Assembly (NCBI GenBank): GCA_023665905.1
Contig: JAMPDA010000012.1
Span: 1 to 49,529 of the forward strand
DNA: 49,529 bases
Direction of reading: 5' to 3'
Origin: Roseburia sp.
GTDB lineage: Bacteria > Bacillota > Clostridia > Christensenellales > Pumilibacteraceae
Shown here: in pieces, positions 859-37,837 of the stretch
Layout: each line of letters begins with the position of its first letter
Numbering within the stretch: the first letter of the stretch is position 1
The notes under the pieces: model-generated
The model's database searches: none
What the model saw: the letters and a program-made list of their open reading frames with translations, nothing else
Told to the model about the DNA's origin: nothing
Position numbers and translations under genes: made by a program

Positions 859-861
859 TTA

Positions 862-937: not shown

Positions 938-940
938 GTA

Positions 941-1015
941 TGGCTGGGGTAGTAGGATTCGAACCTACGGATAACGGAGTCAGAGTCCGTTGCCTTACCG
1001 CTTGGCGATACCCCA
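941..1015 (-). tRNA. tRNA-Gln (CTG)
   Basis: Minus strand, 75 nt. The acceptor TGGGGTA pairs with TACCCCA, the anticodon loop CTCTGAC reads CTG, and CCA is encoded. It is a sister of the neighbouring tRNA-Gln(TTG), with the same D-arm sequence. Confidence 0.94.
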
Positions 1016-1034
1016 ATATTGTCGGCATGGAGAG

Positions 1035-1109
1035 TGGCAGGGGTAGCAGGATTCGAACCTGCGAGTGCGAAAGTCAAAGTCTCGTGCCTTACCGCTTGGC
1101 GATACCCCT
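1035..1109 (-). tRNA. tRNA-Gln (TTG)
   Basis: Minus strand, 75 nt. The acceptor AGGGGTA pairs with TACCCCT, the anticodon loop CTTTGAC reads TTG, and CCA is encoded. The two Gln isoacceptors look like a local duplication that has diverged. Confidence 0.94.
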
Positions 1110-1112
1110 TCA

Positions 1113-1191
1113 TGGGGTGGGTAAAGGGATTCGAACCCTTGGCCTCTAGAGCCACAATCTAGCGCTCTAACCAAACTGAGCTATACCCACC
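1113..1191 (-). tRNA. tRNA-His (GTG)
   Basis: Minus strand. The acceptor GTGGGTA pairs with TACCCAC, the discriminator base is C, and a G at position -1 (1191) is encoded; both are hallmarks of bacterial tRNA-His. The anticodon loop reads GTG, and CCA is encoded. Confidence 0.95.
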
Positions 1192-1195
1192 ATAA

Positions 1196-1272
1196 TGGCA
1201 CGCCCGGGGGGATTTGAACCCTCGACAAACGCCTTAGAAGGGCGCTGCTCTATCCAGCTGAGCTACGGGCGC
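1196..1272 (-). tRNA. tRNA-Arg (TCT)
   Basis: Minus strand, 77 nt. The acceptor GCGCCCG pairs with CGGGCGT with a terminal G-T pair. The anticodon loop CTTCTAA reads TCT (AGA codons), and CCA is encoded. Confidence 0.94.
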
Positions 1273-1277
1273 ACGGC

Positions 1278-1351
1278 TGGAGCGGGTGATGGGAATCGAA
1301 CCCACGTGGTCGGCTTGGAAGGCCGAAACTCTACCATTGAGCTACACCCGC
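1278..1351 (-). tRNA. tRNA-Gly (TCC)
   Basis: Minus strand, 74 nt. The acceptor GCGGGTG pairs with CACCCGC, the anticodon loop CTTCCAA reads TCC, and CCA is encoded. It is the first gene of the tRNA operon, just downstream of the promoter at 1364-1392. Confidence 0.95.
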
Positions 1352-3003: not shown

Positions 3004-3085
3004 GCGAGCGTGGCGAAATGGCAGACGCGCCGGACTTAGGATCCGGTGGGAAACCGTGCAGGTTCAAGTCCTGTCGCTCGCACCA
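3004..3085 (+). tRNA. tRNA-Leu (TAG)
   Basis: A class II tRNA of 82 nt. The acceptor GCGAGCG/CGCTCGC is perfect, the anticodon loop CTTAGGA reads TAG (CUA codons), the variable arm is long, and CCA is encoded. It is a single-gene transcript from the promoter at 2965-2993. Confidence 0.95.
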
Positions 3086-3954: not shown

Positions 3955-5430
3955 CTATTTATGAAAAACGACGAGCCGAGGGCGATCGTCCACCCTCACC
4001 CATTTACCGACGTTACTGTACCAGACGGCTTCGTACCGGTTTACCGCGACATTATCGTCGTTGAACAGATCGCCGTTTGTCGGGTCGTAATTGAGCCACT
4101 CGGATAACGCTTGGTCGAGCATATCCGGCGTAACGAGCGCCGACAAGCTGAAATCGACGCTGCTGCTTGTTTGACCGTACAGCGGATTTACCGCGTCTAT
4201 ATCGGCAACCGTGGTTATGCAGCCGTTGAGCTGTGTGCCCGAAACGACATAGCCCGCAATGCTTCCGCTGTGCTTGACGGGCATGGGATCGTCCGCCGCC
4301 GTCGGACTGCCGTAAACGGACGCGACGTCGCCGTTGTTGACGCTGAACGCCACCGTGCCGCTCGTCATGTAGCCCACGATACCGCCGGCATAGTCGGCGC
4401 ACGATATCGACGCGGTATTCTCGATGTTTCTCAAATTGCCGTAATTGCTGCCTACGACCCCGCCGATATACCTCTGCCCGGGGAGATCGATATTTCCCGA
4501 CACCCACACATTTTCCAAATATCCGTAGTTGGTGACGACCACTCCGCCCACTCTGTCGTTCATGCCGACCGTAGCCGTTATATCGATGTCGAAGTGGACA
4601 TTGCTTATGCGCGCGCCGCCGTGCATATTGCGTATAAACGGCACAGTCAAGCCAGAAACGGAGTATCCCCTGCCGTCGATGACCGCGTTGAAACCGTCGA
4701 TAGTCGCATGCCCATCGGCAATGATGTCGGCGTTGAAAACAAAGTACGCCGATCCGTCCAAAAAGCTGCCCGAATACGACATAAACTCGTCGTATGTGTT
4801 TATGACGATCACATTTTCGGGCTGCGTCGGGGCGTCCTCGGGCTCGGGCGCTTTGACGCCGAAATACACGCCCAAAAATACGCCCACAGCCACGAGCAAT
4901 ACGGCAACTACGGAAGCTATTATCGCAATATGTTTTTTCTCGGTCTTGCGCTCTTGCGCTTTTTCCGCATTGTCAGGCGGCTCGGCGCAGACGTTTCCGA
5001 TAAAAAGGTCGTGCAACGACACGCCCATTATCTCGCAGAGCTTGGGGAATATAGACAGATCGGGAAAGCCCTGTCCGCACTCCCAGCGGCTCACCGCCTG
5101 ATGCCCGACGAATAACTTTTCGGCTAACTCCTTTTGCGTTATTTCGTTGCTCTTGCGCCACTTTTGGACAGTCTTGCCGAACGACGCGAACGTGACGTCG
5201 TAGGCTTCGGCGAGCTCGACTTTTTTGTCCTCGAAAAGCCCGTCGATCCGAATATGAAAGTAATTGGCAAGGTTGATAATCTGCGGGATATCCGGATAGT
5301 AATTTCCGTTCTCCCAGCCGGAAACGGTCTGCGGCGAAACGCGCAGAAAGTCAGCCAACTGCCGCTGACTGACTTTCCGCTCCCTGCGGAGCAAGACAAT
5401 ATTATTCCTGATATTGCTTACTTCTATCAC
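3955..5430 (-). CDS. double-HTH transmembrane regulator with GLUG-like ectodomain
   Basis: A 491-residue protein. Two complete XRE helix-turn-helix domains lie at about 8-65 and 86-145, followed by a charged stretch, one transmembrane helix (about 167-193, positive-inside) and an outer domain (205-491) of short Gly-rich repeats (VGGVV, AGGIVG, SGSIAG) typical of GLUG-type beta-helices. The outer domain aligns along its length with residues 830-1163 of the lipoprotein encoded 12 bp upstream: YDxF near its start, GGYSV/GRGYSV, NVW, IGGVVGS, DYAGGI, WLNY, and WYS near the end. It is the last gene of the lipoprotein/ABC operon. By architecture it is a one-component transmembrane transcription factor that could sense a cell-surface state and act on DNA directly. 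Target and ligand are inferred, not shown. Confidence 0.85.
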   Translation of the reverse strand: MIEVSNIRNNIVLLRRERKVSQRQLADFLRVSPQTVSGWENGNYYPDIPQIINLANYFHIRIDGLFEDKKVELAEAYDVTFASFGKTVQKWRKSNEITQKELAEKLFVGHQAVSRWECGQGFPDLSIFPKLCEIMGVSLHDLFIGNVCAEPPDNAEKAQERKTEKKHIAIIASVVAVLLVAVGVFLGVYFGVKAPEPEDAPTQPENVIVINTYDEFMSYSGSFLDGSAYFVFNADIIADGHATIDGFNAVIDGRGYSVSGLTVPFIRNMHGGARISNVHFDIDITATVGMNDRVGGVVVTNYGYLENVWVSGNIDLPGQRYIGGVVGSNYGNLRNIENTASISCADYAGGIVGYMTSGTVAFSVNNGDVASVYGSPTAADDPMPVKHSGSIAGYVVSGTQLNGCITTVADIDAVNPLYGQTSSSVDFSLSALVTPDMLDQALSEWLNYDPTNGDLFNDDNVAVNRYEAVWYSNVGKWVRVDDRPRLVVFHK

Positions 5431-5442
5431 CGCTTACCTTGT

Positions 5443-8400
5443 TTATCTCCCTTTGAAATACTCGAGTCTGAATTTGCCGTTGTCGCTGTACCAGGTGCCG
5501 CTGTTCTCCGAGAAGAAATCGGGTCCGCCCTGGTCGCCGCTGTCGTCAACGTATCCTGTATTGCCGTTTATTTGACAAGTCAGGCACTTTTCGCCGATCC
5601 TATGGTAATTGAGCCAGTTGTTGAGAATGTCGGCTGTGGAGTTTCTGTCTACGTGATACGTGCCGTTTAATGTGTTGGGCAAGCCGTTCACGCACTTCGG
5701 ACTGCCGTTGCCGCCCATGTAGCCTGCGATCGCCGCCTGCGCATGTCCGTAAGACACATTCTCGTGCAATCCCTCGGTCGTAGTGACGCAAGCGATCACC
5801 CTGTACGGATACGATGTGCTTCCGACCACGCCGCTCGCGTGCTTGTAATACTTGCCCGCCGCGCCGTTTGTACCGTTGTTCCAAGACCCTTGAGTCGCGG
5901 TCATAATACCCTCGTTGACGGAGTATCTTAGTATCTGACCTCCGCTGTTGAGACTTCCCGCAATGCCGCCCGCGTAATCGAGCGCGGTCACGTTTGCGGA
6001 GTTGAGGCAGTTTTCTATTATCGTGTAATTTCTCGTGTCGCTTCCCGACATGCTGCCGACGACGCCGCCGACGAATTTTACGTTGGGAAGGTTGACCGTG
6101 CCGAGCGTCCATACATTGCCTATATATCCGCTGCTATAGCAGGACACTATTCCGACGTACTGCGTGCGCAACGCCGACATTTTAGTTATATTGGCGGTTA
6201 TCTTTGCGCCGATAAACTGCGCGCCTTTTGCAATGCTCTCGAACATCGGCCGAGTTACGCCCGTGACCGAGTACCCGCCGAAATCGACCGAAGCGTTAAG
6301 TTCGGGAAGCAGCTCGTTGCCGCCCGCGCCGAATGCGACGTTTGCCGTGAATTTGTAATACTTGCCCGAAGCGTTGCCCGTTTTGAGAAGGTGCGACGCG
6401 AACTGATCGTAATTGCTTACCGAATACGGCGATCCCTGCGTGCCGCCGCCCGTCACCTGCGAGGACTTATCTTCTATCCAACTGCCGTAGAGAGCAAAGT
6501 CGTCGGTCACATTGTACGATTCGGGGAGCGGATACGTCCTGTCGCTGTCGAGGAACCATTGATTGAACACATATCCGTTTTTGACCGGATTTACAAGGCC
6601 CGTAATATCGCTCTTGGAGCGCGTGCCCTCATAAGCCAGATCGCTTGCGAATACCGATCCATTCATATCGTAGAACACCACGTGCTTGGCTACGCCGGCT
6701 TCCCACATGGGATAGAGCTTGACGTCCGCGACGACAGTCATGCTGTCGGGGAATTTGGTCGTTAGCGCGCTATCGGTGTACCAGCCGACAAACACAAAGC
6801 CTGTGCGCGCATTGGGCTTGGCAAGCTGATTGTATGTCATAGGTCCGCCGTATCTATGCTCCTCGACCTTGAACACCGTGCCGTCATGGTTATAGTATGT
6901 GAAACTGCGCGTTTCCACTTTCTCCCAACCGGCGTACAGTGTTACGACCTGACCGGAAGTCCCCTGCACCCAGTTCTGCGCGCGAACGGTACAGGCGGCG
7001 TCGGTATACCAGCCCGTAAAGCCGTAGCCGTCGCGAAGCACAGTGCTCGAGTTGTCGCTTATAATAGAATAACCGTACGGGTTCTTCCCCACCTGCGTAA
7101 GCTTAGGCAGACGCGGCGAGCAATCGAAGTATACGACATAGTATCCGCTCGGGATAGTTTCGTACTTGGCGTACAGCGTGGTGTCGGTATATATTATTTC
7201 GTCGAAGTCGAACGGAACGTTGCATGCCGCGTCGCGATACCAGCCCTTGAGATACTGCCCGTTCTTTCTCGGGCTGTACAGCAACGGCGAGATCGTTCTG
7301 CCGCTGACAACGCTCACCGTGCGCGACTGCGTTGCGGACACCGTGCCGCCGCAATAGTCGAACGTCACCGTTCTGTCCACGCCTGTGACTATTGCGTTCC
7401 ACTTGGCGTACAGCGTTATATCGCTGCTTATAGGGCTCGAAAAGTCGAACTTGCCTGTACATTCGATATCGGTATACCAGCCTGCGAAATAATAGCCGCT
7501 GTACGACGGATAGTACGGCTCGACGATATACGGCGACGATTTCGACACCGTTTGGCTCGTCACATCCGTGCCGCCGCGCGTATCGAACGTCACTATGTAC
7601 GCGTCATCCCACTTGGCGTAGTACATAGTGTTTGCATTTATAACCTGCGCGCTCACGTTGACGGGCGTACCCGAAACGGTCGTCCAGCCGCAAAAAACCT
7701 TGCCGAGAAGCGTGGGATCTTCCGGCTCGATAGCCGTATCTCCGTGCGAAATGTACTGCGTCGGCACCGACGATCCGTCGCCCACTTCAAAGCCGACTTT
7801 ATGTACTGCGCGCACCTGCAAAACGCCGCTGTCTGCGTCGTAGCTTTGCGTAAGTACGCCGCCGCAGAAGCGATCGAGGCTGAGCCTGCCGTCCGAATCC
7901 CTCACCCAAACGGTGTAATAATCGTCCAAAGAGCTGTTCTTTTCCACACGGCTCGCATTGGAAAGATCGGCGATTACACGCTCGCCGCTTAGGTTGTACG
8001 CCTCGTTGAACGTCCAGCCGCTGCCCAGCACGTACACCTTGCTGTATACGACGAGCACGCGCGAATCGCACAGCGGATTGAACTTATAACCCTTGCGACC
8101 GCTCGCAGGATTGGGCGTTTGGCTGACGTTGTAGTTCCAGCCGTTGAAGTCGCCGACGATCTTGGGTATGCCGAACGTCACGACCGTGCCGTGTTCGGCG
8201 ACAGGTTCTTCGTCGCTCCACTTGGCGTACAGCGTTATGTTGTTCAAAACCGCCGAGTCGAAGTCGTATTCTATATTGTAATTTGTGTCCGTAAACCAGC
8301 CTGCAAAATATTTTTCGTCCTTGTACGGCTCGACCGGATATGTAGCTTTTTCGTTTATCCTGACGAGCTGCTTATCTACTTCACTGCCGCCGCGGCTGTC

Positions 8401-8934
8401 GAAAATGACCGTCTTGACGGCGCTTTCGCTCTCGTAGACCGCATTGATATCCATATTGCGGTCCACGCCGATAATGTCGCTGTTGATTATCATGTCGCCG
8501 CTCGACCAATACGCCACATAGCCGTCGCGCTGCGACAGTATGGGAAATTGCGAATACTTCAGCGTTCCGCCGGCATCGACAGTCTTTTCCGACACCAACT
8601 GCGAATTATTGTAAAATCTAAGAGTGTACTGTACCGTCGTGCCGTCCTGCCAATACGCATGAAGCGTGAGGTCGGACTCGACCGGTCCGCCGTAAAATCT
8701 GTCGGTGTACGCGCTGTCGGTAAACCAACCGGCAAACGTATAGCCGTCGAGCGTGGGGGTCGGCAAGTCGATGTAACCTCCGGCTTCGACCGTCACATCC
8801 GGATCGTTAGTTCCGATAAACGTGACGGTGTACGTCGTATCGTCGGAGCTTTTCTTGCCGCATGCTAATAGCGCCGCACCCGAAAATGCAAGCACTATCG
8901 CAAGAAAAACCGTTAAAAGTCTTTTATTTTTCAT
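5443..8934 (-). CDS. large InlB-repeat surface lipoprotein with GLUG-like C-terminus
   Basis: A 1163-residue lipoprotein. The signal peptide ends in the lipobox LLAC with Cys25 as the lipid-modified residue. About nine InlB B-repeat units (Flg_new type, pattern VTF...GG...FAGWYTD...ITLYAKW) follow, at roughly 35-95, 102-167, 174-239, 378-442, 445-512, 520-590, 598-670, 676-744 and 749-820. Between units three and four (about 245-375) is a different domain carrying GDFNGW (261-266), the hallmark of CBM48/AMPK-type E-set domains. Residues 830-1163 form a GLUG-like domain shared with the adjacent regulator. InlB repeats usually act as spacers or adhesion modules on the outer face of the membrane. 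A dedicated promoter lies at 8970-8998, and ATG is preceded by GGTGGGGA. Confidence 0.88.
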   Translation of the reverse strand: MKNKRLLTVFLAIVLAFSGAALLACGKKSSDDTTYTVTFIGTNDPDVTVEAGGYIDLPTPTLDGYTFAGWFTDSAYTDRFYGGPVESDLTLHAYWQDGTTVQYTLRFYNNSQLVSEKTVDAGGTLKYSQFPILSQRDGYVAYWSSGDMIINSDIIGVDRNMDINAVYESESAVKTVIFDSRGGSEVDKQLVRINEKATYPVEPYKDEKYFAGWFTDTNYNIEYDFDSAVLNNITLYAKWSDEEPVAEHGTVVTFGIPKIVGDFNGWNYNVSQTPNPASGRKGYKFNPLCDSRVLVVYSKVYVLGSGWTFNEAYNLSGERVIADLSNASRVEKNSSLDDYYTVWVRDSDGRLSLDRFCGGVLTQSYDADSGVLQVRAVHKVGFEVGDGSSVPTQYISHGDTAIEPEDPTLLGKVFCGWTTVSGTPVNVSAQVINANTMYYAKWDDAYIVTFDTRGGTDVTSQTVSKSSPYIVEPYYPSYSGYYFAGWYTDIECTGKFDFSSPISSDITLYAKWNAIVTGVDRTVTFDYCGGTVSATQSRTVSVVSGRTISPLLYSPRKNGQYLKGWYRDAACNVPFDFDEIIYTDTTLYAKYETIPSGYYVVYFDCSPRLPKLTQVGKNPYGYSIISDNSSTVLRDGYGFTGWYTDAACTVRAQNWVQGTSGQVVTLYAGWEKVETRSFTYYNHDGTVFKVEEHRYGGPMTYNQLAKPNARTGFVFVGWYTDSALTTKFPDSMTVVADVKLYPMWEAGVAKHVVFYDMNGSVFASDLAYEGTRSKSDITGLVNPVKNGYVFNQWFLDSDRTYPLPESYNVTDDFALYGSWIEDKSSQVTGGGTQGSPYSVSNYDQFASHLLKTGNASGKYYKFTANVAFGAGGNELLPELNASVDFGGYSVTGVTRPMFESIAKGAQFIGAKITANITKMSALRTQYVGIVSCYSSGYIGNVWTLGTVNLPNVKFVGGVVGSMSGSDTRNYTIIENCLNSANVTALDYAGGIAGSLNSGGQILRYSVNEGIMTATQGSWNNGTNGAAGKYYKHASGVVGSTSYPYRVIACVTTTEGLHENVSYGHAQAAIAGYMGGNGSPKCVNGLPNTLNGTYHVDRNSTADILNNWLNYHRIGEKCLTCQINGNTGYVDDSGDQGGPDFFSENSGTWYSDNGKFRLEYFKGR

Positions 8935-8969
8935 TCCCCACCGCCGACATATTTAGTTCATCTGCCGAC

Positions 8970-8998
8970 AGTATAAAATATTTTATACTTTAAGTCAA
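8970..8998 (-). promoter_or_regulatory. promoter with a perfect palindrome, before the large lipoprotein
   Basis: On the minus strand TTGACT (8993-8998), 17 bp, TATACT (8970-8975). The palindrome AGTATAAAATATTTTATACT covers 8970-8989, that is, the -10 and most of the spacer. A regulator bound here would block RNA polymerase. It drives the large lipoprotein and the transmembrane HTH regulator, so autoregulation by the latter is plausible. Confidence 0.6.
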
Positions 8999-9061
8999 TA
9001 TCTATCGCATACGGCGCAAAAGGCATTGCGCAATTTGAACTTGATTTTGTTTATATATCGG

Positions 9062-10498
9062 CTACATATCGATAGAGTAAATACATTTGCCGTAATTGCA
9101 CCAATACGGCGACGTCACATACGCGTCGAGCAGTTCGGACGGGACATAGATCTTTACGTCCGAACCCACGTCGAACAGAAAATGACTGTTCATTATATAC
9201 GGCGGCTCTTTAGCGTAGATGTACAGCTCTTTTAAGTTTGTACAACCGCCGAAAGCGTTGTCGCCTATATACAGACACCCCTCGCCCACGGTGACGCTCT
9301 CGAGCCGCGACATGCCGCGGAATGCGCCGTCGCCTATGCGCGTAACGCTCGAAGGACAGACTATCTCGCGCACATTGTTCCTTACCGTCGCGCTGAGTTC
9401 GGACGCAAAACCGTTGGGAATATTATATGTGTTTTCGGGTAAAGCATATCTGCCCGAACTGCCCGAAAGATTTAACAGCCTGCCGTTATCGGAAACGGTA
9501 ACGCCCTCGCTCGTTATGAGCGACTTTTCCGTCACTGTTATGGGATATATGAACTCGCGTCCCGCAAATTCGATTTTAACGGTGCGATTACCGGGCGTAC
9601 CCGTGTCGAATTCGACTGCCATGCCTTTATTTATCGGCATACCCCACAAAATACTGCCGTCGGAGGCGACGCCCGTCATAAACAGTCCGCGTGTCGAAAA
9701 CACATCGCCGACCTCGTACGTCAAGTCCACTTCATCGCCGATAGACAAGTGTTTATTTTCCATTTCAAAGTCGAAATACCACTCGCCTATATCCTTGTAG
9801 ACCTTGTAAGCAAACTCGGTGTATTCGCCGGCGTAGCACAGCGTGACGCTGCGCGAAACGCATGCCGCCTCCTCTTTGCTGTAGTCTATTTCCAGCCAAT
9901 TCGCATAAAACATGGTATCTTCGGAAATTTTCGTGACATAGTCTATCGGCCTTTTGCACTCCGGATCGAAATACCAACCCTCAAAGTACACGTCGGCGCT
10001 CGGCGCATGCGGCGTCGGTATTTCCGCCTCGGACAGAGGCTCGCCCTTTTTGTGCAGCCTGCGCTGTAACCGCAACTCGTCGCAATCGGGATTTGAAAAA
10101 TACAGATTGACCTGACGGCTCGTAGGCTCGCCCACCCAAGGCTCATAGTCGTAAACGGGCGGCGTAACTTCCACGGTAAAGTCGCTCGTGTCGAAATCGC
10201 CGACTATCATATCGTCCGATACGGCGACGCTGTTTTCGCTTCCGTCGGTATATATAAGCGTAAGATACATTCTCGACGGATCGAAGCTCTCACCCACGAC
10301 GTACGAGGTCTTTTGATATCCGTCCGCCACCGAAATCCTTGCAAGCGACTTTTCGCCGACGCCGAAAACGGGCGCGGACGAACTGTCGGTAAGCGTGCCG
10401 ACGCTTCCGCACGAGCAAAGCAGCAGCGCGCTCGATACGGCGACAAACGCCGACGCTTTGCGCGATATATTCGCGTGACGCTTGCTACACCTTTGCAT
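9062..10498 (-). CDS. lipoprotein with Ig-like, InlB-repeat and BspA-type LRR regions
   Basis: A 478-residue lipoprotein. The signal peptide ends LLLCSC, with Cys30 as the probable lipid-modified residue. Then come a bacterial Ig-like segment (about 50-115, YQKTSYVVGESFDPSRM), one InlB-type unit (about 165-200, FEGWYFDPEC...MFYANW), a beta-rich middle region, and BspA-type leucine-rich repeats (about 365-455, VTRIGDGAFRGMSRLESV). The start codon lies inside the end of the upstream ABC gene (14-nt overlap), so the two are translationally coupled. It probably works on the cell surface with the coupled FtsX-type transporter; a substrate-binding or signalling partner role is inferred. Confidence 0.85.
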   Translation of the reverse strand: MQRCSKRHANISRKASAFVAVSSALLLCSCGSVGTLTDSSSAPVFGVGEKSLARISVADGYQKTSYVVGESFDPSRMYLTLIYTDGSENSVAVSDDMIVGDFDTSDFTVEVTPPVYDYEPWVGEPTSRQVNLYFSNPDCDELRLQRRLHKKGEPLSEAEIPTPHAPSADVYFEGWYFDPECKRPIDYVTKISEDTMFYANWLEIDYSKEEAACVSRSVTLCYAGEYTEFAYKVYKDIGEWYFDFEMENKHLSIGDEVDLTYEVGDVFSTRGLFMTGVASDGSILWGMPINKGMAVEFDTGTPGNRTVKIEFAGREFIYPITVTEKSLITSEGVTVSDNGRLLNLSGSSGRYALPENTYNIPNGFASELSATVRNNVREIVCPSSVTRIGDGAFRGMSRLESVTVGEGCLYIGDNAFGGCTNLKELYIYAKEPPYIMNSHFLFDVGSDVKIYVPSELLDAYVTSPYWCNYGKCIYSIDM

Positions 10499-13088
10499 TT
10501 ATCGCCTCTATCGGGGAGATGTTGTTGTACTTGCGTATAGGCAGCACTATCGAGAACACCGTAACGCCGACCGCAAGAGCCGCCGTTATAAGATACACGT
10601 ACCATTTTATATTGAGTATGGCAAGATACGTGCCGTAGGCGCTCGCGAGTATGGAATTTACTACGGGCCCTGCTATCAGCAGTATCACGACCGAAAGAAC
10701 TATCGATATAAGCGTCACCGCAAATCCCTCGAGCGCGTAAACGGTAAACGTATCCGCCTTTTTTGCGCCGAGCGCGCGCAGTATGCCTATATTCTTGCGC
10801 GTAAGCGTTATCGACGAGGCAATAAAGCTGTACAGCAGCATGAGTATGACGAGCGACATCACAACGGATATTGCGAGTATCACCGCCTTAAACGTCGATA
10901 AAAACGCAAGTACGTCGTTATAACTGCCCATATATTCCGCCTGCAAGGAAAACCCACCGTCATACACCGAGCGAATGAGCGCTTCCGTATCGTCGGCGTC
11001 GCCGTTGTTGACGGCTACAAGCATTCTCGTATAGACCACGTTTTCGAAAATGCCGTCGAGAAGATCGCCCGAAAGCAGTATTCCGTTTGACCCGAAGCCC
11101 GTGCCGCGCATAACGCCCTTTATCTTAAAATCGCGGCTGACATACACCGGCAAACCGTTATAATACAGCGTGAGCTCGCGCGTGCGGTCGGAATTTAAAT
11201 AGTTTATCGTAGTGTATTCGCCCGAGCTTTGGACGCCGAAGCCGTTTTGCAATATGTTTTCCGAGATGATAATATCGCTCGCACTCTTGATTTCCGCCGC
11301 GCCGCCGTCTATATTCGACGTGGAAATATAAAAGTCGTCCGCGTCGTAATACTCCTGCTTCCCCGTCGCGAAGGCGACGTTTTGACGCGCGCCGTAATAG
11401 CCGTTTGCGGCTGTGCTCGTGTAACTGATATGCACCGAAAAACCGTCGTCAAACTGCGCGATGCGGTTTATATAGTCGTCTACGAACCCGCGCTTGACGA
11501 ACAGCTTGTCAAGGAACACTCGGCTGTCCGTTTCGTACTTTGCCGCATCCGCGTCGCCGTAAGAAGTCGGGCTTGCGAATATTCCGCCGACCGTAAAGTT
11601 CTCGTTGTTGAGCATTACGTTGCGCCCGACCGCGTCCGTTATGCCGTCGGCGGCGACAGCGCCGTTTTCGAGCAGCTTTTCGGCGGCATACTGCGAAATT
11701 ATCACCGTGTTGTAGTTTTTCGGGATATCGCTGCCGGCGATCACCGTGTACCCGAAGTCCTTTATGCTGTCAACTTCGTAAACGCCGTCGAAACCGGTGA
11801 ACCCGTTATAAATTTTATATGTAACCGCCATTCCGAGCGAGCGCTGTTCGTAAAACGTGATATCTGAATTTCCGGAGTAAAAATCCGCCGCTTGCGCGTC
11901 GCTTATCTTGCCGAGCTCTCCTCCGCTGTCACGCACTATCGCGACCGTTTTTTCGTTGCCTTTGTTTACCGTTTGCGCGACCGCCTGCGGCAGGTCGTAA
12001 AAGTTAAAACTCATCGCCACGGCGAACAGCACGAACGTAAACACGGAAAGTATGACCGTCAATATCATTTTGAGTTTTTTGACGCTCAAATTGGACAGCC
12101 CGAGCTTTATTTTGCCGCGCACGGGCAAACGGCTGTCTATGAGGTCTATATGCGCGCTTTCGGTCTGCTTTTCGACGTACGGCTTAAAGCCTGCCGTAGC
12201 GCTGTCGCTCCGCACGCTCTCGCCGGCTTGCGGAATAAGCGCTTGAACTTTGAGCGGATCTCTTTCCACAAATACGAACGACTTGCCGCTGTCGTACAGC
12301 GTTTCGTTGAGCTGTCGAACTTCGTCGTCGCCTATCTTTTTTCCGTTTTCGAGCTTTATGAGATTGGGAAGAACAAACGGCGAGTTTTCCTTATCTTCCG
12401 TGCGCGCCGTCGCCTCGCCGCGCTCGACATCGCGATAGACATTTCCGTCGCGCATTTCGATAATGCGGTCGCCGTAAGCCACTGCCTTTTCCATATCGTG
12501 CGTAACGACGACGACGAGCTTTTCTTCGGCGAGAGTGCGGAATATATCCATAACCTCTTCGCCGGTGCGGCTGTCGAGCGCGCCCGTCGGTTCGTCGGCA
12601 AGTATTATTTGCGGTTTCTTTACGAGCGCGCGCGCTATCGCCACGCGCTGTTTTTGTCCGCCCGAAAGGTTGAGCACGCGAGAATGAGCCTTGTCCGACA
12701 TTCCGACAGCCGCGAGCGCGTTTTCCACATTGCCGTCATCGACTTTGCTTTGCAGATCGAGCGCGAGCTTGACGTTGTCAAACACGTTCATCGACGTGAC
12801 GAGGTTAAAGTCTTGGAACACAAAGCCTATGACTGTGTTTCTGTAAGCGTCCACCTGCTTGCCCGTCATCTCCGACACATTGACGTCGCCTACGATTATA
12901 TTGCCGCTGTCCGGCTTATCCAAACCGCCTATGATATTGAGTAGCGTGGATTTGCCGCTGCCGCTCCGCCCGACTATAAACACGAGCCCTTTATCGCCGA
13001 ACGACAGCGACACATCCTTCAGCGCACGGAAAGTAACGCCCGTATCCGTGCCGTAAGTCTTTTTAATATTTTCGAGTTTCAGTAACAT
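10485..13088 (-). CDS. ABC transporter: LolD-type ATPase fused to FtsX/MacB-type permease
   Basis: An 867-residue fusion. Residues 1-220 are an ABC ATPase of the LolD/MacB group: Walker A GRSGSGKST (about 39-47), signature LSGGQKQR, Walker B IILADEPTGALD and switch VVTHD. After a linker come a first membrane helix (about 340-365), a large extracytoplasmic domain, and three C-terminal helices (about 735-860) with the FtsX fold motif NIGILRALGAKK. Members of this group couple ATP hydrolysis to movement of the outer domain rather than moving solutes across the bilayer. The start has a strong ribosome site (AAGGAGGTG at 13095-13103). It is the second of two such genes in tandem, and the next gene overlaps it by 14 nt. 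Confidence 0.92.
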   Translation of the reverse strand: MLLKLENIKKTYGTDTGVTFRALKDVSLSFGDKGLVFIVGRSGSGKSTLLNIIGGLDKPDSGNIIVGDVNVSEMTGKQVDAYRNTVIGFVFQDFNLVTSMNVFDNVKLALDLQSKVDDGNVENALAAVGMSDKAHSRVLNLSGGQKQRVAIARALVKKPQIILADEPTGALDSRTGEEVMDIFRTLAEEKLVVVVTHDMEKAVAYGDRIIEMRDGNVYRDVERGEATARTEDKENSPFVLPNLIKLENGKKIGDDEVRQLNETLYDSGKSFVFVERDPLKVQALIPQAGESVRSDSATAGFKPYVEKQTESAHIDLIDSRLPVRGKIKLGLSNLSVKKLKMILTVILSVFTFVLFAVAMSFNFYDLPQAVAQTVNKGNEKTVAIVRDSGGELGKISDAQAADFYSGNSDITFYEQRSLGMAVTYKIYNGFTGFDGVYEVDSIKDFGYTVIAGSDIPKNYNTVIISQYAAEKLLENGAVAADGITDAVGRNVMLNNENFTVGGIFASPTSYGDADAAKYETDSRVFLDKLFVKRGFVDDYINRIAQFDDGFSVHISYTSTAANGYYGARQNVAFATGKQEYYDADDFYISTSNIDGGAAEIKSASDIIISENILQNGFGVQSSGEYTTINYLNSDRTRELTLYYNGLPVYVSRDFKIKGVMRGTGFGSNGILLSGDLLDGIFENVVYTRMLVAVNNGDADDTEALIRSVYDGGFSLQAEYMGSYNDVLAFLSTFKAVILAISVVMSLVILMLLYSFIASSITLTRKNIGILRALGAKKADTFTVYALEGFAVTLISIVLSVVILLIAGPVVNSILASAYGTYLAILNIKWYVYLITAALAVGVTVFSIVLPIRKYNNISPIEAINAKV

Positions 13089-32320: not shown

Positions 32321-33799
32321 TTAGAGCAGTATGCAGATAATTCCGCCGCGACCCTCGTTGATTATGCGCGACAGGGTCTTTCGCATTTTCTTTTGCGTTT
32401 CCGCGGGCATTGCCGACAGCTTGCTGTTTAGGTTTTCGTTGACCAAACTGTCGAGCGACTTGCCGAACATATTGGTCTGCCATATCCCCTTGGGGTTTTG
32501 CTCGAACTCGCTAAGCAGATAGTTGACAAGGTCCTCGCTCTGCTGCTCCGTGCCCACGACGGGACACACTTCGGTGTCGATATCCACGCGCATGATGTGA
32601 AGGCTGGGAGCCGACGCCTTGAGCTTTACGCCGAAGCGCGAGCCCTGCTTGAATATCTGCGGCTCCTGCAACGTCATTTCGTCGAGCGTCGGCGCAACCA
32701 CACCGTAGCCCGTTTCGGCGACGTCGTTCAGCGCGGCGGACAGCTTGTCGAAGGAGCGCTTCGCTTTGGCGAGCTCGCCGAGCGACGCCATCAAGTCGAA
32801 CTCGTCTTTGATATCCACGCCGCACTCTTCCTTGAGCGCACGATAGAACAGCCCTTCGCGTTCTTTTACGGCGTAAACCGCTCTGCCTTTATTGAGCTCC
32901 AGGCTCTTGAGCGTGACGCACGGCTCGAAAAACTCGCTCTCGCCTATTTCCGCGTCGTCTATGCAATCGCACATCTTTGTGCGCTCGGCGGCAACCGTCG
33001 CGCACTTTTCCAAAAGATCGACCACTATGGGATTGGACTTATCGAGCGCACGTATCCAATTAGCCGTTTCGATGTACACGTCGCGGAGCGGAAACTCGTA
33101 CAGCACCGTTTCAAACAACTTGACGATATCCGCTTTTCCGAGCCCTGCGACGTTGAGCGGGATCACCGCATTTTCGTACTTTTCGGACAGCGATTTGGCG
33201 AGCTTTTTCGTTTCCGCCGACGACGGCACGGACGAATTCAAAACTATGACGAACGGCTTGCCGAGCGCCTTGAGTTCGCTCACCGTGCGCTCCTCCGCCT
33301 CGACGTACGCGTCGCGCGGAAGCTCGGTCTTTATTGAGCCGTCGCACGTCATCACCACGCCGATAGTCGAGTGGTCCGCTATCACCTTGCGCGTGCCTAT
33401 TTCCGCCGCGCGCTCGAACGGCATGGGCTCGTCGCTCCAAGGCGTCTTGACCATGCGCGCCTCGTCGCCGTCCCTGTGACCGGTCGCGCCGTCTATCATA
33501 TAGCCAACGCAGTCTACAAGCCGCACGGATATCTCGGCGGTTTCGTTTAGACTGACCGTAACCGCCTCGCTCGGAACGAACTTGGGTTGCGTAGTCATGA
33601 CGGCTTTGCCTGCCGCGCTCTGCGGCAGTTCGTCGCGCATGCGCTCGAGTTCGTAGCCGCTCGCCGACGGAATTACAAACGTGTTCATAAAGTTTGTTAT
33701 GAACGTCGATTTGCCCGAACGAACCGGACCGACTACTCCGATATAAATATCACCGCCCGTCCTCTCGGCGATATCGTTGTAAATGTCGTATTCTTCCAT
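32321..33799 (-). CDS. spoIVA: stage IV sporulation protein A (spore coat/cortex ATPase)
   Basis: A 492-residue protein, as I recall the same length as in B. subtilis. SpoIVA polymerises on the outer forespore membrane in the mother cell, hydrolysing ATP, and forms the base of the coat. Walker A is GPVRSGKST (24-32), the VDCVGYMIDGA segment near 96 is the switch region, and the C-terminus (RIINEGRGGIICILL) is the conserved tail that contacts SpoVM. It has its own terminator and a matching sigma-E promoter (33839-33867), with GGGAGGT as ribosome site. In Bacillus and many Clostridia it follows der-(plsY)-gpsA; here gpsA is absent and an ESCRT-like cassette occupies that place. Confidence 0.97.
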   Translation of the reverse strand: MEEYDIYNDIAERTGGDIYIGVVGPVRSGKSTFITNFMNTFVIPSASGYELERMRDELPQSAAGKAVMTTQPKFVPSEAVTVSLNETAEISVRLVDCVGYMIDGATGHRDGDEARMVKTPWSDEPMPFERAAEIGTRKVIADHSTIGVVMTCDGSIKTELPRDAYVEAEERTVSELKALGKPFVIVLNSSVPSSAETKKLAKSLSEKYENAVIPLNVAGLGKADIVKLFETVLYEFPLRDVYIETANWIRALDKSNPIVVDLLEKCATVAAERTKMCDCIDDAEIGESEFFEPCVTLKSLELNKGRAVYAVKEREGLFYRALKEECGVDIKDEFDLMASLGELAKAKRSFDKLSAALNDVAETGYGVVAPTLDEMTLQEPQIFKQGSRFGVKLKASAPSLHIMRVDIDTEVCPVVGTEQQSEDLVNYLLSEFEQNPKGIWQTNMFGKSLDSLVNENLNSKLSAMPAETQKKMRKTLSRIINEGRGGIICILL

Positions 33800-33867: not shown

Positions 33868-33905
33868 CGACAATCGAATACGCTTTAATCTATGCGAAAA
33901 CAAAC

Positions 33906-33934
33906 AAAAAAAGAACGGCATATCCGTCCTTTTT
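33906..33934. terminator. terminator after the ESCRT-like cassette
   Basis: AAAAAG-A-ACGG, loop CATAT, CCGT-C-CTTTTT: a stem with one mismatch flanked by A- and T-runs, so active on either strand. It lies about 30 bp beyond the stop of the Vps4-like gene and before the spoIVA promoter, separating the two units. Confidence 0.55.
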
Positions 33935-33965: not shown

Positions 33966-35045
33966 TTATCTTGCTTTTGCGCGCTTTGCTATTATATCGA
34001 GCAGAGCGTCGGATAACGGCGAAGAAAGCGCGGCAAGCCCTGCGTCGCGTGCCGCGAGCGCGCTTTTAAGCTCGAGCGCGGCTTGCGCTATATCCCTGCC
34101 CGAAAACCCTTCCGACGCGTCAGCCGCCGCCTGTAAGTCGAGCGCGGCAAAGTCGGCGGCGTCGAGCATTTTGAGCTTAGCGCCGAACATTCTCATGCGC
34201 TCCTCGCCCGTCGGCAGAGGAATGTTTATCACGTTGCGAAACCTGCTCAATATCGCAGGGTCGAGCGTGTTTTTTATATTGGTCGCCGCTATCAGAACTA
34301 TGTCGTCCGAACCGGAGGAAAAGCCGTCCATCTGCTTGATGAGCGCAGGCACCGCTTCGGCGGCGGTCTTGTTTTCGCCGCCGCGCTTTTGCGCCAGATA
34401 GTCTATCTCGTCCAAAAACAGCACTACGGGCGTGCCGTTCCGCCGCGACAGAACGCGCGCGGACTCGAACATCCTGTCGATATTCTTTCCCGTCTTGCCT
34501 ATATACGAATCCACGAGCGAATTTGCGTCAACGTCCGCAAACGGCACGTCGAGCTCGCTCGCCGCCGCCTTTGCGAAAGTGGTCTTGCCCGTGCCCGGCG
34601 GACCTTCGAGCAGTATGAAGCCGCCGGCTTTGATGCCGTATTTGGAATACGCCTGCGGATTGTTGAGCGGATCTATCAGCAGCCTGTGTATTGCCGCCTT
34701 CGCCTCGTCGAGCCCTATTATATCGTCGAAAGCGACCTTTTCGTTGGGTTTTGAAAAGTGCATAAAACTCGGAGCTTCGGTCTGCGCTTGCTCGGGCTCG
34801 GACTTGGCGTCCGCGCCGAGCGACGCTTGCGCCGTCAGGTTTTCCGCTATATATTTGAGCTTTTGCGCGCGTTCTTTGCGCGTTACATCGAGCGGCGGAT
34901 CGCTGTTATCCGCAATGCTTTCCATAAGTTCGGCGGCGCGCATAAAATATCGCTTTGCGGCGGCGACGTCGCCGCTTGCGTTTGCCGCAGCGGCTTTATC
35001 GTACGCCTCTTTGAACATGTCGAGCTCCAAAACGTTGTCGCGCAT
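33966..35045 (-). CDS. Vps4-like AAA+ ATPase with MIT-like N-terminal domain
   Basis: A 359-residue classical AAA+ ATPase. Residues about 8-70 form three amphipathic helices with the MIT pattern (AYDKAAAANASGDVAAAKRYFMRAAELM...KLKYIAENL), followed by a Gln/Ala/Pro linker. The AAA module has FDDIIGLDEAK (106-116), Walker A GPPGTGKT (148-155), pore-loop segment SYIGKTGKNIDRMF (180-193), Walker B VVLFLDEID (207-215), sensor 1 AATN (253-256), arginine finger region DPAILSRFR (262-270) and a sensor 2-like SGRDIA. Order and spacing match Vps4/katanin rather than FtsH or ClpX. It starts 2 nt after the ESCRT-III-like gene. Vps4 disassembles ESCRT-III polymers, and a like role is inferred here. I see no insertion resembling the Vps4 beta domain. 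Confidence 0.85.
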   Translation of the reverse strand: MRDNVLELDMFKEAYDKAAAANASGDVAAAKRYFMRAAELMESIADNSDPPLDVTRKERAQKLKYIAENLTAQASLGADAKSEPEQAQTEAPSFMHFSKPNEKVAFDDIIGLDEAKAAIHRLLIDPLNNPQAYSKYGIKAGGFILLEGPPGTGKTTFAKAAASELDVPFADVDANSLVDSYIGKTGKNIDRMFESARVLSRRNGTPVVLFLDEIDYLAQKRGGENKTAAEAVPALIKQMDGFSSGSDDIVLIAATNIKNTLDPAILSRFRNVINIPLPTGEERMRMFGAKLKMLDAADFAALDLQAAADASEGFSGRDIAQAALELKSALAARDAGLAALSSPLSDALLDIIAKRAKAR

Positions 35046-35047
35046 CG

Positions 35048-35623
35048 CTACACTTCTCCGTCCACCCGACCGTTCTTTATCTTGCGCTCCAAAGCCGCTA
35101 TCTCGTCGTCTATGGACGCACCGCCGCCCATCTGCGCGTCTATGAGCCTGTCTATCTCGTCGTCGGCTATACCGCCGCTTTCGGCAAAGCCCGAAAAACC
35201 GCTCTGCGTAGCGTCCAAAAACGCATCCGACTCGGCTTGCTTCATCTGCGTGGATATCATCGCCTTGTTCATTTGGTTCGCGACCTTTTCGAACTTGAGC
35301 CCGTTTGCGGTGTCAGTTATCGAGCCGGAAAGCATTTTCATGCCGTCGGCAAACGATTTGGTCATTTCCGAAACGTCCTTTATCTGCGCGCTTATCTGCA
35401 AGTTGAGCAACATTTGCTCCACCACCGTTTTTTGCGCAGTGACTATTCTTATCGCGTTGCGCGCGAGGTTGTACTGCGAAGTTATACCCTCGGACTTTGC
35501 CGTCGCCGCCGCCGCGATGTATTTTTTTCTGCTCGCTTCGAGATCGCTCAGTTGCTTTTTAACCGACGCGACGGCGGAATTTACGAGCATTTGCTCCTTT
35601 ATGCGCTTCTTCTCTTTGCTCAT
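35048..35623 (-). CDS. ESCRT-III/Snf7-like coiled-coil protein
   Basis: A 191-residue soluble helical protein. It has a basic N-terminal helix (KEKKRIKEQ), a long helical hairpin (about 10-85: LEASRKKYIAAAATAKSEG, QYNLARNAIRIVTAQK, EQMLLNLQIS), a further helix with MTKSFADGMKMLSGSI (87-102), and FEKVANQMNKAM (111-122) linked to an acidic C-terminus, DDEIDRL, ending in the helix DDEIAALERKIK (172-183 region). Helix order, length, the basic-to-acidic polarity and the short terminal amphipathic helix are those of CHMP1/CHMP2-type ESCRT-III; the last helix partly fits the MIM1 motif. Start 35623 is set by a 4-nt ATGA overlap with the upstream gene. It would polymerise on membranes under control of the adjacent Vps4-like ATPase. 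Confidence 0.8.
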   Translation of the reverse strand: MSKEKKRIKEQMLVNSAVASVKKQLSDLEASRKKYIAAAATAKSEGITSQYNLARNAIRIVTAQKTVVEQMLLNLQISAQIKDVSEMTKSFADGMKMLSGSITDTANGLKFEKVANQMNKAMISTQMKQAESDAFLDATQSGFSGFAESGGIADDEIDRLIDAQMGGGASIDDEIAALERKIKNGRVDGEV

Positions 35624-37101
35624 AGTACATTCACCTTCAGCGCGGCGGTCGCGCGTTTTATATCGGTATCGGAAATACGCGGCGCGAGTATTTTGCGTCC
35701 GCGGAAGATAAACTCGCCCACTCCCGTCAGCTTTTCCGCGCCTGCAGTTCCGTACAGCAACACGCTGTCCGCTTCCGTGGCGGTCCTGAACGCTATCACG
35801 GCGTCGGCATTGGCTTTTATGCCGCCCGTCACCGTCTTTGCCGTAAGATCGCGCGTGCAGACGACCGTGAATATGCCCGCGCTCGCCGCACTGCGGCACA
35901 GCGCCGCATACTCGCGCTCGAAAGCCGGCATGAGCATGTCGTACTCGTCGAACACGACCGCTATGTACGGCATACGCTCCTCGGCAGACTTGTTGTACTG
36001 TTCTATATTACGCACGCCGCGCCCGTTAAAGGCGGCGTAGCGCCTTTCTATCTCGTCGGATAGCGCGGAAAGCGCAGCCGAAACGTTTTCGGCGCCGCTT
36101 ATAGCGTCCGCCGCCGCGTGCGCCGTTCCGTTGTATGCGGACAGCTCGCCGTCGCCCGAATCTATGAGCAACAGCCGAAGCTCCTTTGACGAATGTGCCG
36201 ACAAAAGCGAACAGATAATATGGTGCAACAGCCGACTCTTGCCGCTGCCGAGCATGCCGCCTATGAGTATATTCGGCGTTTCCGAAAAATCTATTTCCGC
36301 GCTGTTGCCGTCGCCGTCCGTTCCTATCTCGACCGCTGCGGCTTTCCGCGTCGCGAAAAACCGCGCCGACGGCGGAGGTTCGACCGCGCCGAAGCGGAAC
36401 ACCCCGTCGGGCGACGGGAAAGGCGTTGCGACAGCCTGTTGCGGCGCGCTCTGCGGCTCGGGCGACGGCGCGGCACTTGCCGCGTCATCTACGCCTACGC
36501 TCGCCTGCATGCGCGCTTGCGGCGTTTCGGAAACGTCTGCGACACGAGGCGAAGCGACGCCGATAGCGTCTATCTCTGCGTCCAAAAACAGCTCTTTTTC
36601 GGACAGCTTGCCGTCCACCAGCTTGTCTATCTGCTCGTCGGTCAGTGAGCCCGTTACGGACGATATCGCCGCGAACGCCGCGTCCGAATTTTGCAGGAAC
36701 ACGTCCAAGCCGGCTTGAGCTTCTTCCATGCCGGACAGCGCTTTTTCTATCTCCTTTTGCAGTTTGACAAAATCCGACTGCTTGTTGACCTTGCTTATGC
36801 GCTTGGCGATGACGGACATGCCCGTCAAAAAGTCGGCGTTAGTTTCGTCCATCTTTTGGAGCTCCGCCGTTATCTCGATATTTAGCAGCATTTCTTTGGC
36901 GCGCTTGATCTGCGACAGCGTGGCGTTGAGCCCGCTCTTGGCAAGGCTATACGATGCGGATTCGCCGCGCGCTTTGGCGTCCGTCGCCTTTTTGAGATAC
37001 TCGGCTTTCATGCGCTCGAGCTTTGCGACAGTCTGCTCTATCTTGGCTATTGTGCGCCGCACTTTTACGTTGCGCTCGGCGCGAGCTTTGATGTTTGCCA
37101 T
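35620..37101 (-). CDS. ESCRT-III-like domain fused to FtsK/SpoIIIE-type ATPase
   Basis: A 493-residue fusion. Residues 1-185 are helical and paralogous to the downstream ESCRT-III-like protein: LERMKAEYLKKATDAKARG, YSLAKSGLNA, MLLNIEI, FLTGM, DVFL, TDEQIDKLVDGK and DAEIDAI occur in the same order. A Pro/Ala/Gln-rich linker (190-250) leads to a RecA-like motor (about 255-493) with Walker A GGMLGSGKS (281-289), Walker B IAVVFDEYDML (380-390) and the FtsK-typical GGIKANADAVIAFRT and GAEKLTGVGEFIF. There is no membrane domain and no gamma (DNA-reading) domain. It is 19 bp after plsY. It may couple a motor to membrane polymer assembly, or bring DNA translocation to the fission site; both are hypotheses. 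Confidence 0.82.
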   Translation of the reverse strand: MANIKARAERNVKVRRTIAKIEQTVAKLERMKAEYLKKATDAKARGESASYSLAKSGLNATLSQIKRAKEMLLNIEITAELQKMDETNADFLTGMSVIAKRISKVNKQSDFVKLQKEIEKALSGMEEAQAGLDVFLQNSDAAFAAISSVTGSLTDEQIDKLVDGKLSEKELFLDAEIDAIGVASPRVADVSETPQARMQASVGVDDAASAAPSPEPQSAPQQAVATPFPSPDGVFRFGAVEPPPSARFFATRKAAAVEIGTDGDGNSAEIDFSETPNILIGGMLGSGKSRLLHHIICSLLSAHSSKELRLLLIDSGDGELSAYNGTAHAAADAISGAENVSAALSALSDEIERRYAAFNGRGVRNIEQYNKSAEERMPYIAVVFDEYDMLMPAFEREYAALCRSAASAGIFTVVCTRDLTAKTVTGGIKANADAVIAFRTATEADSVLLYGTAGAEKLTGVGEFIFRGRKILAPRISDTDIKRATAALKVNVL

Positions 37102-37120: not shown

Positions 37121-37837
37121 CTATTCGACGACCGTAGGCAAATCGAACACGGTCGCGCGGTCCGTTGCGACCTTGACCTTTTTCGATTTTTTAAGCACCA
37201 CTCTGCCCTCGTTGCCCGAAAACAGTTTTACGAGGTTCTTTCTGTGCGCGAACAGGCTGAGCGCGTACATCAAAAACAGTATCACGGCGCAGTACACGCC
37301 GAGCGGCTGACTTGCCGCGCGCAATCCCTCTACAGTGAGCGGTGCGCTTATCATTATAAACGACGTAAGCGAGCCTATTTTGAATACGAACAAAAACACC
37401 ACGCCGAGCGCGAAAAAGCCGAGCGTGTACAGCGGTTGCATCGTCAGGCACACGCCTATTATGGTCGCCGCGCCCTTTCCGCCCTTGAACTTCATCGCCG
37501 CAGGATAGATGTGCCCGAGCGTCGTGCAAAAGCCTGCTACGTACATTCCCATACGGTCCGCGCCGAGGCGCAAAAATTCGCCCGTGCCCATAAACAGCCA
37601 ACCCAAAAGACAGGGTATCACGCCCTTCAAAACGTCCAGAACAAGCGTAAGCGCGCCCATGGGTTTTCCGAATGTGCGTATCATATTCATCGTGCCCGGA
37701 TTGCCGCTGCCGCACTTGCGAATATCCTTGCCCTTAAGCTTGCTTATGGCGATCGCGGTATTGATGTTGCCTATAAAGTATGCGCCGAGCGCAACAAGCA
37801 CACCCGTAATTATTTCCATATGTAAAGGGATAGTCAT
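37121..37837 (-). CDS. plsY: acyl-phosphate:glycerol-3-phosphate acyltransferase PlsY
   Basis: A 238-residue integral membrane enzyme that acylates glycerol-3-phosphate with acyl-phosphate, the first step of phospholipid synthesis. Family motifs are clear: GSGNPGTMN (near 43-51), HIYPAAMKFKGGKGAAT (near 108-124) and a hydrophobic profile with about six helices. It is slightly longer than the usual 190-210 residues owing to a basic cytoplasmic C-terminal tail (KKSKKVKVATDRATVFD...). The start overlaps the der stop (ATGA) with GGGAGGGGAG upstream. Downstream, 19 bp away, begins the ESCRT-like cassette. Confidence 0.96.
   Translation of the reverse strand: MTIPLHMEIITGVLVALGAYFIGNINTAIAISKLKGKDIRKCGSGNPGTMNMIRTFGKPMGALTLVLDVLKGVIPCLLGWLFMGTGEFLRLGADRMGMYVAGFCTTLGHIYPAAMKFKGGKGAATIIGVCLTMQPLYTLGFFALGVVFLFVFKIGSLTSFIMISAPLTVEGLRAASQPLGVYCAVILFLMYALSLFAHRKNLVKLFSGNEGRVVLKKSKKVKVATDRATVFDLPTVVE

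Follow-up and report, generated by a model that had tools for sequence, protein, structure and literature searches.

The stretch of DNA analysed here, called the window, is contig JAMPDA010000012.1 (49,529 nucleotides) of a 1.82-Mb draft genome that is 97.6% complete (GenBank assembly GCA_023665905.1, listed as Roseburia sp. and assigned to the family Pumilibacteraceae). Its minus strand carries, in this order, der, plsY, a gene for a protein of 493 amino acids (aa), a gene for a protein of 191 aa, a gene for an AAA ATPase of 359 aa, and spoIVA. The middle three form a cassette whose products resemble parts of the ESCRT-III/Vps4 machine (ESCRT, endosomal sorting complex required for transport), which cuts and mends membranes in our cells. 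A preliminary description, made by a model from the letters alone, had reported three consecutive coupled genes at this place, and the open reading frames (ORFs) bear this out: the 493-aa and 191-aa genes share four bases (ATGA), and a gap of two bases separates the 191-aa and 359-aa genes. Third-position GC content is 0.68-0.71 in all three, compared with 0.68-0.74 in the surrounding core genes. The genes and their recognizable parts are as follows.

35620..37101, minus strand: ESCRT-III-like/FtsK fusion, 493 aa (ORF; Pfam FtsK_SpoIIIE; paralogy to the 191-aa protein)
36541..37101, minus strand: ESCRT-III-like domain of the fusion, residues 1-187 (fusion family against Snf7/CHMP in hhalign, 87.0% over 158 columns)
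35767..36348, minus strand: FtsK/SpoIIIE motor domain of the fusion, residues 252-445, with Walker A GMLGSGKS and Walker B AVVFDE (Pfam PF01580, E 4.9e-29)
35048..35623, minus strand: ESCRT-III-like protein, 191 aa (ORF; family-level Snf7/CHMP match; model and Foldseek)
35075..35110, minus strand: predicted C-terminal amphipathic helix of the 191-aa protein, MIM1-like, residues 172-183 (predicted helix; tail pattern)
33966..35045, minus strand: ATPase of 359 aa with MIT-like N-terminus and one classical AAA domain (ORF; Pfam; NCBIfam; structure prediction)
34842..35033, minus strand: predicted MIT-like three-helix bundle of the ATPase, residues 5-68 (structure prediction; CdvC score gain)
34215..34616, minus strand: AAA core of the ATPase, residues 144-277, with Walker A GPPGTGKT, Walker B VLFLDE and YIG at the pore-loop place (Pfam PF00004; motifs)

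The 191-aa protein is paralogous to the N-terminal domain of the 493-aa protein (26% identity, E 1.6e-18), and at the family level these helical proteins are homologous to eukaryotic Snf7/CHMP proteins. An alignment of 25 members, taken from the window, its relatives and a protein search, scores 93.9% over 146 columns in hhalign against a profile of six eukaryotic ESCRT-III sequences, with an E-value of 1.6e-7 that, like all hhalign E-values here, refers to a single pair and not to a database. Reversing either side reduces the score to 0.4-0.5%, and the accepted homologues Snf7 and PspA, as a yardstick, score just 9.4% against each other. The family enlarged to 74 members scores 94.0%. Six subgroups score 30-84% (below 1% when reversed), with two aligned over only ~50 columns and the window's own subgroup lowest at 30%; the subgroup of FtsK-type N-domains scores 64.3% (reversed control, 0.2%). 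As an empirical control, the same comparison was applied to 32 gene families, each present in at least six gathered loci. Only the families of the 191-aa protein (95.1%) and of the fusion (87.0%) exceed 5%, and the next reaches 4.4%. When the Snf7 hidden Markov model is run over 872 ORFs of 15 loci, the top six matches are all cassette proteins, the first clearly significant (E 1e-5) and the other five at 0.012 to 0.084. This profile comparison and its controls are the main support for the likeness to Snf7.

Membership in the PspA/Vipp1 family is rejected by the same method, at 0.7% with 25 members and 3.5% with 74, and none of the six subgroups exceeds 2%. The preliminary description had proposed two ESCRT-III-like helical domains, and its expectation of a profile match holds for both at the family level, on the Snf7/CHMP side and not on that of PspA. 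The host genome contains just one match to PF04012 (PspA_IM30), of 13.9 bits and elsewhere, and none over the cut-off.

Searches with single sequences give fainter signals. Snf7 is the Pfam family matched by the largest number of the 25 members (six at E <= 1), the best match being 6e-6, just below the curated cut-off, and two additional fusion proteins match it at 1e-5 and 6.2e-4. Six Snf7 matches whose coordinates were inspected are collinear and cover most of the profile; ten of the 25 members were scanned singly, which gave coordinates for three of the six matching members. The 191-aa protein alone does not match Snf7 in Pfam or NCBIfam scans, and has weak GreA-type coiled-coil matches instead. 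A PDB sequence search with the 25-member profile yields five chance-level matches and no ESCRT-III chain.

AlphaFold2 predicts helices at residues 3-45, 48-105, 111-149, 154-165 and 172-183 of the 191-aa protein, with a mean predicted local distance difference test (pLDDT) score of only 66. With moderate confidence, this predicted order corresponds to that of ESCRT-III, in which a long alpha1-alpha2/3 hairpin precedes alpha4 and alpha5 and the C-terminal helix stands apart. Residues 91-102 are FADGMKMLSGSI. Net charge is +6 over residues 1-45 and -6 over 151-191, and in the N-domain of the fusion it is +8 over 1-47 and -5 over 151-187, so the helix order, basic start and acidic end given in the preliminary description agree with the model and the charges. 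Among 335 Foldseek matches of the model in the PDB, ranks 1-21 all belong to the ESCRT-III superfamily and include CHMP2A/CHMP3, Vipp1, Asgard ESCRT-IIIB, Shrub, CHMP1B, Snf7 and PspA chains; the best E-value is 7.7e-3, and none is <= 0.001. VIA-align does not discriminate on this model, as SerRS hairpins tie with ESCRT-III.

Tails of the family end in an amphipathic helix that runs from acidic to basic. A canonical MIM1 core, by the generally known consensus, is mostly absent, occurring in 3 of 80 distinct tails (after shuffling, 0.4 on average and at most 3). The pattern acid-x2-[IL]-x2-h-x3-h (spacing i, i+3, i+7), which was picked after the tails had been inspected, is found in 69 of 79 distinct tails (after shuffling, 4.3 on average and at most 12).

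The 359-aa ATPase has one classical AAA domain with intact Walker A and B motifs. R268 and G183 are invariant in a 31-row AAA alignment, and YIG occupies residues 181-183; these residues presumably serve as arginine finger and pore loop. The three N-terminal helices are predicted at 5-23, 27-46 and 52-68 (block pLDDT 91-97, residues 11-70), and form the three-helix bundle that the preliminary description had anticipated. For the whole protein the best NCBIfam model is archaeal CdvC, at 157.7 bits and thus far under its cut-off of 650; with the N-terminus removed, PAN, CdvC and FtsH tie (144.9, 144.2 and 141.1 bits). CdvC scores with and without the N-terminus are 157.7/144.2, 209.0/194.3, 212.4/209.3 and 132.2/118.6 bits in four cassette ATPases, which corresponds to gains of 13.5, 14.7, 3.1 and 13.6 bits. 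The same addition shifts the CDC48, PAN and FtsH models by at most 1.3 bits and IteA by up to 2.7, and CDC48 is still the top-scoring model in two of the four (loci L042 and L032). These gains point to an N-terminus that is CdvC-like, and hence MIT-like. For the ATPase, VIA-align rows extend over the AAA part alone, where PAN, Vps4, Rpt and FtsH lie close to one another. Vps4_C is absent from the best 25 of 34 families for the 359-aa ATPase, and in one relative (L037) it is matched at E 6e-4, with 20.2 bits against a cut-off of 21.3.

The preliminary description covered only residues 1-185 of the 493-aa protein and overlooked its FtsK/SpoIIIE domain. Neither FtsK_alpha nor FtsK_gamma is listed by Pfam for this protein at E <= 1; in two fuller fusions of relatives FtsK_alpha precedes the motor (E <= 0.01), and FtsK_gamma is again unlisted. 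NCBIfam scores of the 493-aa protein are close, at 93.4 bits for FtsK and 86.7 for EssC. One of the fuller fusions matches the DNA translocase FtsK best, at 271.7 bits against 99.9 for EssC, and we accordingly reject an assignment of the FtsK part to EssC and type VII secretion. A single additional FtsK is encoded in the host genome, by an open frame 1126 aa long. Of the 22 genomes of the host's family that have the helical gene, 7 contain a fusion whose Walker A motif is intact; the motor is decayed in G012, and G016 has no in-frame motor. Locus L030 (7888-9177, plus strand) has a decayed FtsK part lacking Walker A in an otherwise intact cassette. In two additional genomes the ESCRT-like domain is joined to a RuvB-like AAA domain, a winged helix and a NERD or TnsA-like nuclease domain, as found by domain scans:

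L129, 1480-3726, plus strand: RuvB-like/nuclease fusion
L132, 1301-4186, plus strand: RuvB-like/nuclease fusion

That the domain has been joined to DNA motors of two different kinds is the family's oddest trait.

The helical gene occurs in 22 of 74 genomes of the host's family. In all but one of these (G492) it lies beside such an AAA gene, within 430 bp and on the same strand. Surveys of the class and the phylum found it in 4 of 391 genomes (the host and three others of its order) and 2 of 398 (the host and one weak match), respectively. When named genomes were scanned with the subgroup whose genes neighbour double-AAA genes, 49 loci were recovered, of which 44 carry the labels Clostridia, Clostridiales, Christensenellaceae or Candidatus Coproplasma; the other five comprise two labelled 'uncultured bacterium', one Eubacteriales, one Bacilli and one Christensenella sp. 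An AAA gene is within the fetched stretch in 47 of these loci and directly adjacent in 34, so the pairing of helical and AAA genes, part of the triad for which the preliminary description had suggested a survey, recurs in both samples. The two counts are not independent, because they partly overlap (e.g., L075 is G033 and L083 is G001). A second helical protein is present in 45 of the 49 loci, an SPFH protein in 41 and, according to a home-made profile, a TIR protein in 35. The TIR profile was built from four seeds, of which Pfam confirms three as TIR_2, and the SPFH profile from three; genomes that are also among the 49 loci contribute two of the TIR seeds and one of the SPFH seeds. The ATPase is at least 640 aa long in 25 loci. 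Both Walker A motifs are intact in three ATPases of ~700 aa (L034, 6287-8377, minus strand; L036; L041), and that of L034 has a MIT-like start, a SpoVK/EccA-like (CbbX) AAA domain and then a Cdc48/CdvC-like AAA domain.

The host genome contains a second locus, L042 (G000:C49:40000-57208), where genes for a TIR protein, an SPFH protein, helical proteins and a MIT-like AAA protein stand in a row (5309-10639, plus strand). Their products are an 816-aa TIR-TPR protein, an SPFH protein with zinc ribbons, helical proteins of 109 and 200 aa, and a 362-aa MIT-like AAA protein whose C-terminus resembles, by eye, that of VPS4. Between the SPFH and ESCRT-III-like genes, a second helical family, which we call X, is found (~200 aa; L075, 9353-9985, plus strand, and 50 relatives). 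Most X proteins begin with MWPFKSKY or similar, and the N-terminus is reminiscent of that of yeast Snf7. The profile scores do not establish X as an ESCRT-III family: it scores 5.4% against the family of the 191-aa protein (reversed, 0.3%) and 1.1% against Snf7; the host's own member alone scores below 2%. The operon in L033, L126, L127 and L128 encodes three ESCRT-III-like domains (one in a fusion and two free), an SPFH protein and a MIT-like AAA protein, with a trypsin-like protease also in L033. In L029 (11390-14713, plus strand), from a close relative, a protein that by eye resembles a TIR-NB-ARC-propeller protein, and that is a seed of the TIR profile, is encoded between the cassette and spoIVA.

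The surroundings of the cassette in the window include three further features.

37121..37837, minus strand: plsY (Pfam G3P_acyltransf, 1.7e-42; TIGR00023, 130.4 bits against a cut-off of 137.2)
33905..33934, minus strand: intrinsic-terminator-like hairpin and T run at the end of the cassette (sequence; a 66-base stretch folds at -16.4 kcal/mol)
32321..33799, minus strand: spoIVA, the first core gene 3' of the cassette (TIGR02836, 656.6 bits)

Since plsY lies upstream, with 19 bp between it and the start of the 493-aa gene, it is likely that plsY and the cassette share one transcript. PlsY acts in phospholipid synthesis and SpoIVA in spore coat assembly. This neighbourhood is compatible with a membrane role, but both are core genes and the evidence is thus weak. 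A clear der-plsY locus is found in 17 of 20 genomes of the host's genus (PlsY is matched in 18, the match in G003 being weak and lacking an accompanying der). Thirteen of the 17 have spoIVA next to plsY, at a distance of 159-385 bp and with no cassette between them, and in the other four (the host, G016, G017 and G012) the cassette occupies this site, with further genes between it and spoIVA in G016 and G017. The cassette is therefore an accessory unit rather than a core one. Elsewhere in the window are an array of seven tRNA genes (774-1351, minus strand) and an eighth, for tRNA-Leu (3004-3085, plus strand). One named species, Anaerocaecibacter muris (Pumilibacteraceae), has a homologue 76% identical to the 191-aa protein, and its complete name, which lacks 'Candidatus', suggests that it may be in culture; other named homologues are from Clostridiales metagenome-assembled genomes, and the habitat of the host is probably the animal gut.

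We read the cassette as two Snf7/CHMP-like proteins of ESCRT-III type, one of them fused to FtsK, together with a MIT-like AAA protein, and judge it on balance probable that they work as a bacterial membrane-remodelling machine of the ESCRT-III/Vps4 type. Several results weigh against this reading. Some individual members of the helical family match unrelated coiled-coil families at E 4.6e-5 or 8.4e-5, and because these families score nearly as well as Snf7, single Pfam matches prove little. Pfam finds MIT in 1 of 14 ATPase N-termini (E 0.073) and TPR_8 in 5 of 14, and hhalign does not separate the two for this region. In AAA trees of 36 and 30 rows, which have flagged long branches and contain no archaeal CdvC, katanin or PAN rows, VPS4 joins p97 both times, apart from the cassette AAA proteins. 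Holding VPS4 together with the AAA type of the window is weakly rejected by the approximately unbiased test (p-AU 0.04); for the AAA type found in the host's second locus, the same constraint is not rejected (p-AU 0.20). Of the Vps4-type ATPase with MIT-like N-terminus that the preliminary description had put forward, the N-terminus has the predicted bundle and the CdvC gain in its favour, and placement in the Vps4 clade fails in these small trees. The ATPase appears Vps4-like in build, and Vps4 membership does not follow from the trees.

Part of this evidence would also suit coiled-coil proteins of an ordinary kind that serve an AAA unfoldase as adaptors or substrates and whose likeness to ESCRT-III consists only of long helical hairpins. 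Such hairpins tie with ESCRT-III in VIA-align, scores stay below curated cut-offs with other coiled-coil families near, and the PDB profile search returns no ESCRT-III chain. We nevertheless consider this explanation quite improbable, given that reversed controls and 30 other families stay below 5% where the two cassette families reach 87-95%, that the six Pfam Snf7 matches are collinear over most of the profile, and that the N-terminus of the adjoining ATPase looks CdvC-like. An envelope-stress module of the phage-shock (PspA-like) type, in which the scaffold stabilises a leaky membrane and the ATPase only recycles it, without fission, is very unlikely: the PspA/Vipp1 profile scores 0.7-3.5%, with all six subgroups at or below 2%. 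What speaks for it is that SPFH partners also accompany PspA in B. subtilis, with YdjI, in the available part of PMC10936438, that a bacterial PspA beside a two-AAA protein, a layout also seen in relatives here, is described in the available part of PMC11237479, and that with no PspA/IM30 over the cut-off in the host genome the place may be free.

The partners in relatives raise the further alternative that the cassette is one form of an immune-like conflict system of gut Clostridia linked to TIR and SPFH proteins. Sensors, namely TIR-LRR and TIR-TPR proteins, and an SPFH platform with an ESCRT-III-like polymer and its ATPase would seal sites where phage or foreign DNA enters, and subunits fused to FtsK or to a RuvB-like protein and nuclease would act on the DNA. 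The 35 named loci with TIR proteins, the row of TIR, SPFH, helical and MIT-like AAA genes in L042, trypsin-like proteases beside the genes in two relatives, the two RuvB-like nuclease fusions and the patchy occurrence (22 of 74 family genomes, with presence or absence at one site) are all consistent with this. The cassette in the window, however, has no adjacent TIR, SPFH, protease or nuclease gene and sits amid der, plsY and spoIVA; TIR is found in only 4 of 27 stretches from the host's own family, three of which are the profile's own seeds; and PADLOC gives general AAA- and FtsK-type matches only, with none for a helical, TIR or SPFH protein. We regard a conflict system as unlikely.

If the cassette is an ESCRT-III/Vps4-type machine, the two helical subunits would co-polymerise on the cytoplasmic face of the membrane as an ESCRT-III-type filament. 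The MIT-like bundle of the ATPase hexamer would catch the acidic amphipathic C-terminal helices of the filament subunits, and the ATPase would thread them through its pore, thereby remodelling the filament, which would constrict, seal or repair the membrane. The FtsK-type subunit would put a DNA pump into the filament, such that any DNA spanning a membrane that is closing or damaged would be cleared during sealing. This pump would be an optional part, because one close relative has lost the motor and another has a decayed copy. Candidate tasks are closure of the septum or forespore, membrane repair, or immune-like sealing with TIR sensors. A broader proposal, which we regard as speculative and somewhat unlikely, is that bacteria of the host's order own a true ESCRT-III/Vps4-type machine with DNA motors (the FtsK pump, or the RuvB-like helicase with nuclease) built into its filaments, so that sealing and the clearing or destruction of the DNA that crosses the membrane would happen in a single step. 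Together with SPFH platforms and TIR sensors, such a machine would be the bacterial equivalent both of immunity by ESCRT membrane repair and of the abscission check on trapped chromatin.

A bacterial Snf7-type polymer with a MIT-like AAA partner, if real, would imply an older pairing, a transfer or two origins, which could be tested with these sequences, and the fusions to FtsK/SpoIIIE and, elsewhere, to a RuvB-like AAA domain and nuclease would directly link membrane remodelling to DNA handling. The available part of PMC10936438 treats the combination of ESCRT-III and Vps4 as an invention of archaea and eukaryotes, with only PspA/Vipp1 in bacteria, and a survey from 2024, as far as its available part goes, confines the pairing to archaea and eukaryotes. 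The accessible portions of PMC10936438 and PMC8581546 state that PspA of B. subtilis needs the SPFH protein YdjI for membrane recruitment. Ravi et al. (2024; PMC11237479), in the part available, report VPS4-like genes transferred to bacteria without Snf7 and predict that, where PspA or Snf7 members have AAA partners, remodelling is driven by ATP. The preliminary description had known of no characterised bacterial system of this kind, but, on the same part of PMC11237479, some bacterial PspA/Snf7 proteins had already been predicted to work with AAA+ ATPases. In open-licence PMC literature, without preprints, we found no published account of a Snf7-type gene beside a MIT-bearing AAA gene in Clostridia, nor of an ESCRT-III-FtsK fusion.

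Compared with the Cdv and CHMP-Snf7/VPS4 systems, the cassette shares a Snf7-type helical core with a basic start, an acidic end and a predicted amphipathic C-terminal helix, and has one or more helical genes next to that of an ATPase whose N-terminus is predicted to form three helices and which has one classical AAA domain. It differs in its bacterial host, in an AAA domain outside the Vps4 group in small trees, in a non-canonical MIM motif and in its FtsK/SpoIIIE-fused subunit, and relatives have SPFH and TIR partners. The 493-aa protein resembles FtsK/SpoIIIE DNA translocases in having a motor domain with Walker A and B motifs, but its N-terminal part is ESCRT-III-like and FtsK_gamma is not listed. 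With the PspA/Vipp1 systems and their AAA+ partners, as presented in the available part of PMC11237479, the cassette has in common a bacterial host, the ESCRT-III superfamily, SPFH partners and some AAA neighbours (two-AAA proteins in relatives), whereas its profile is Snf7-like rather than PspA-like and its ATPase has a predicted MIT-like N-terminus. These two features, the DNA-motor fusions and the TIR/SPFH setting set it apart from the systems described in that part of the paper.

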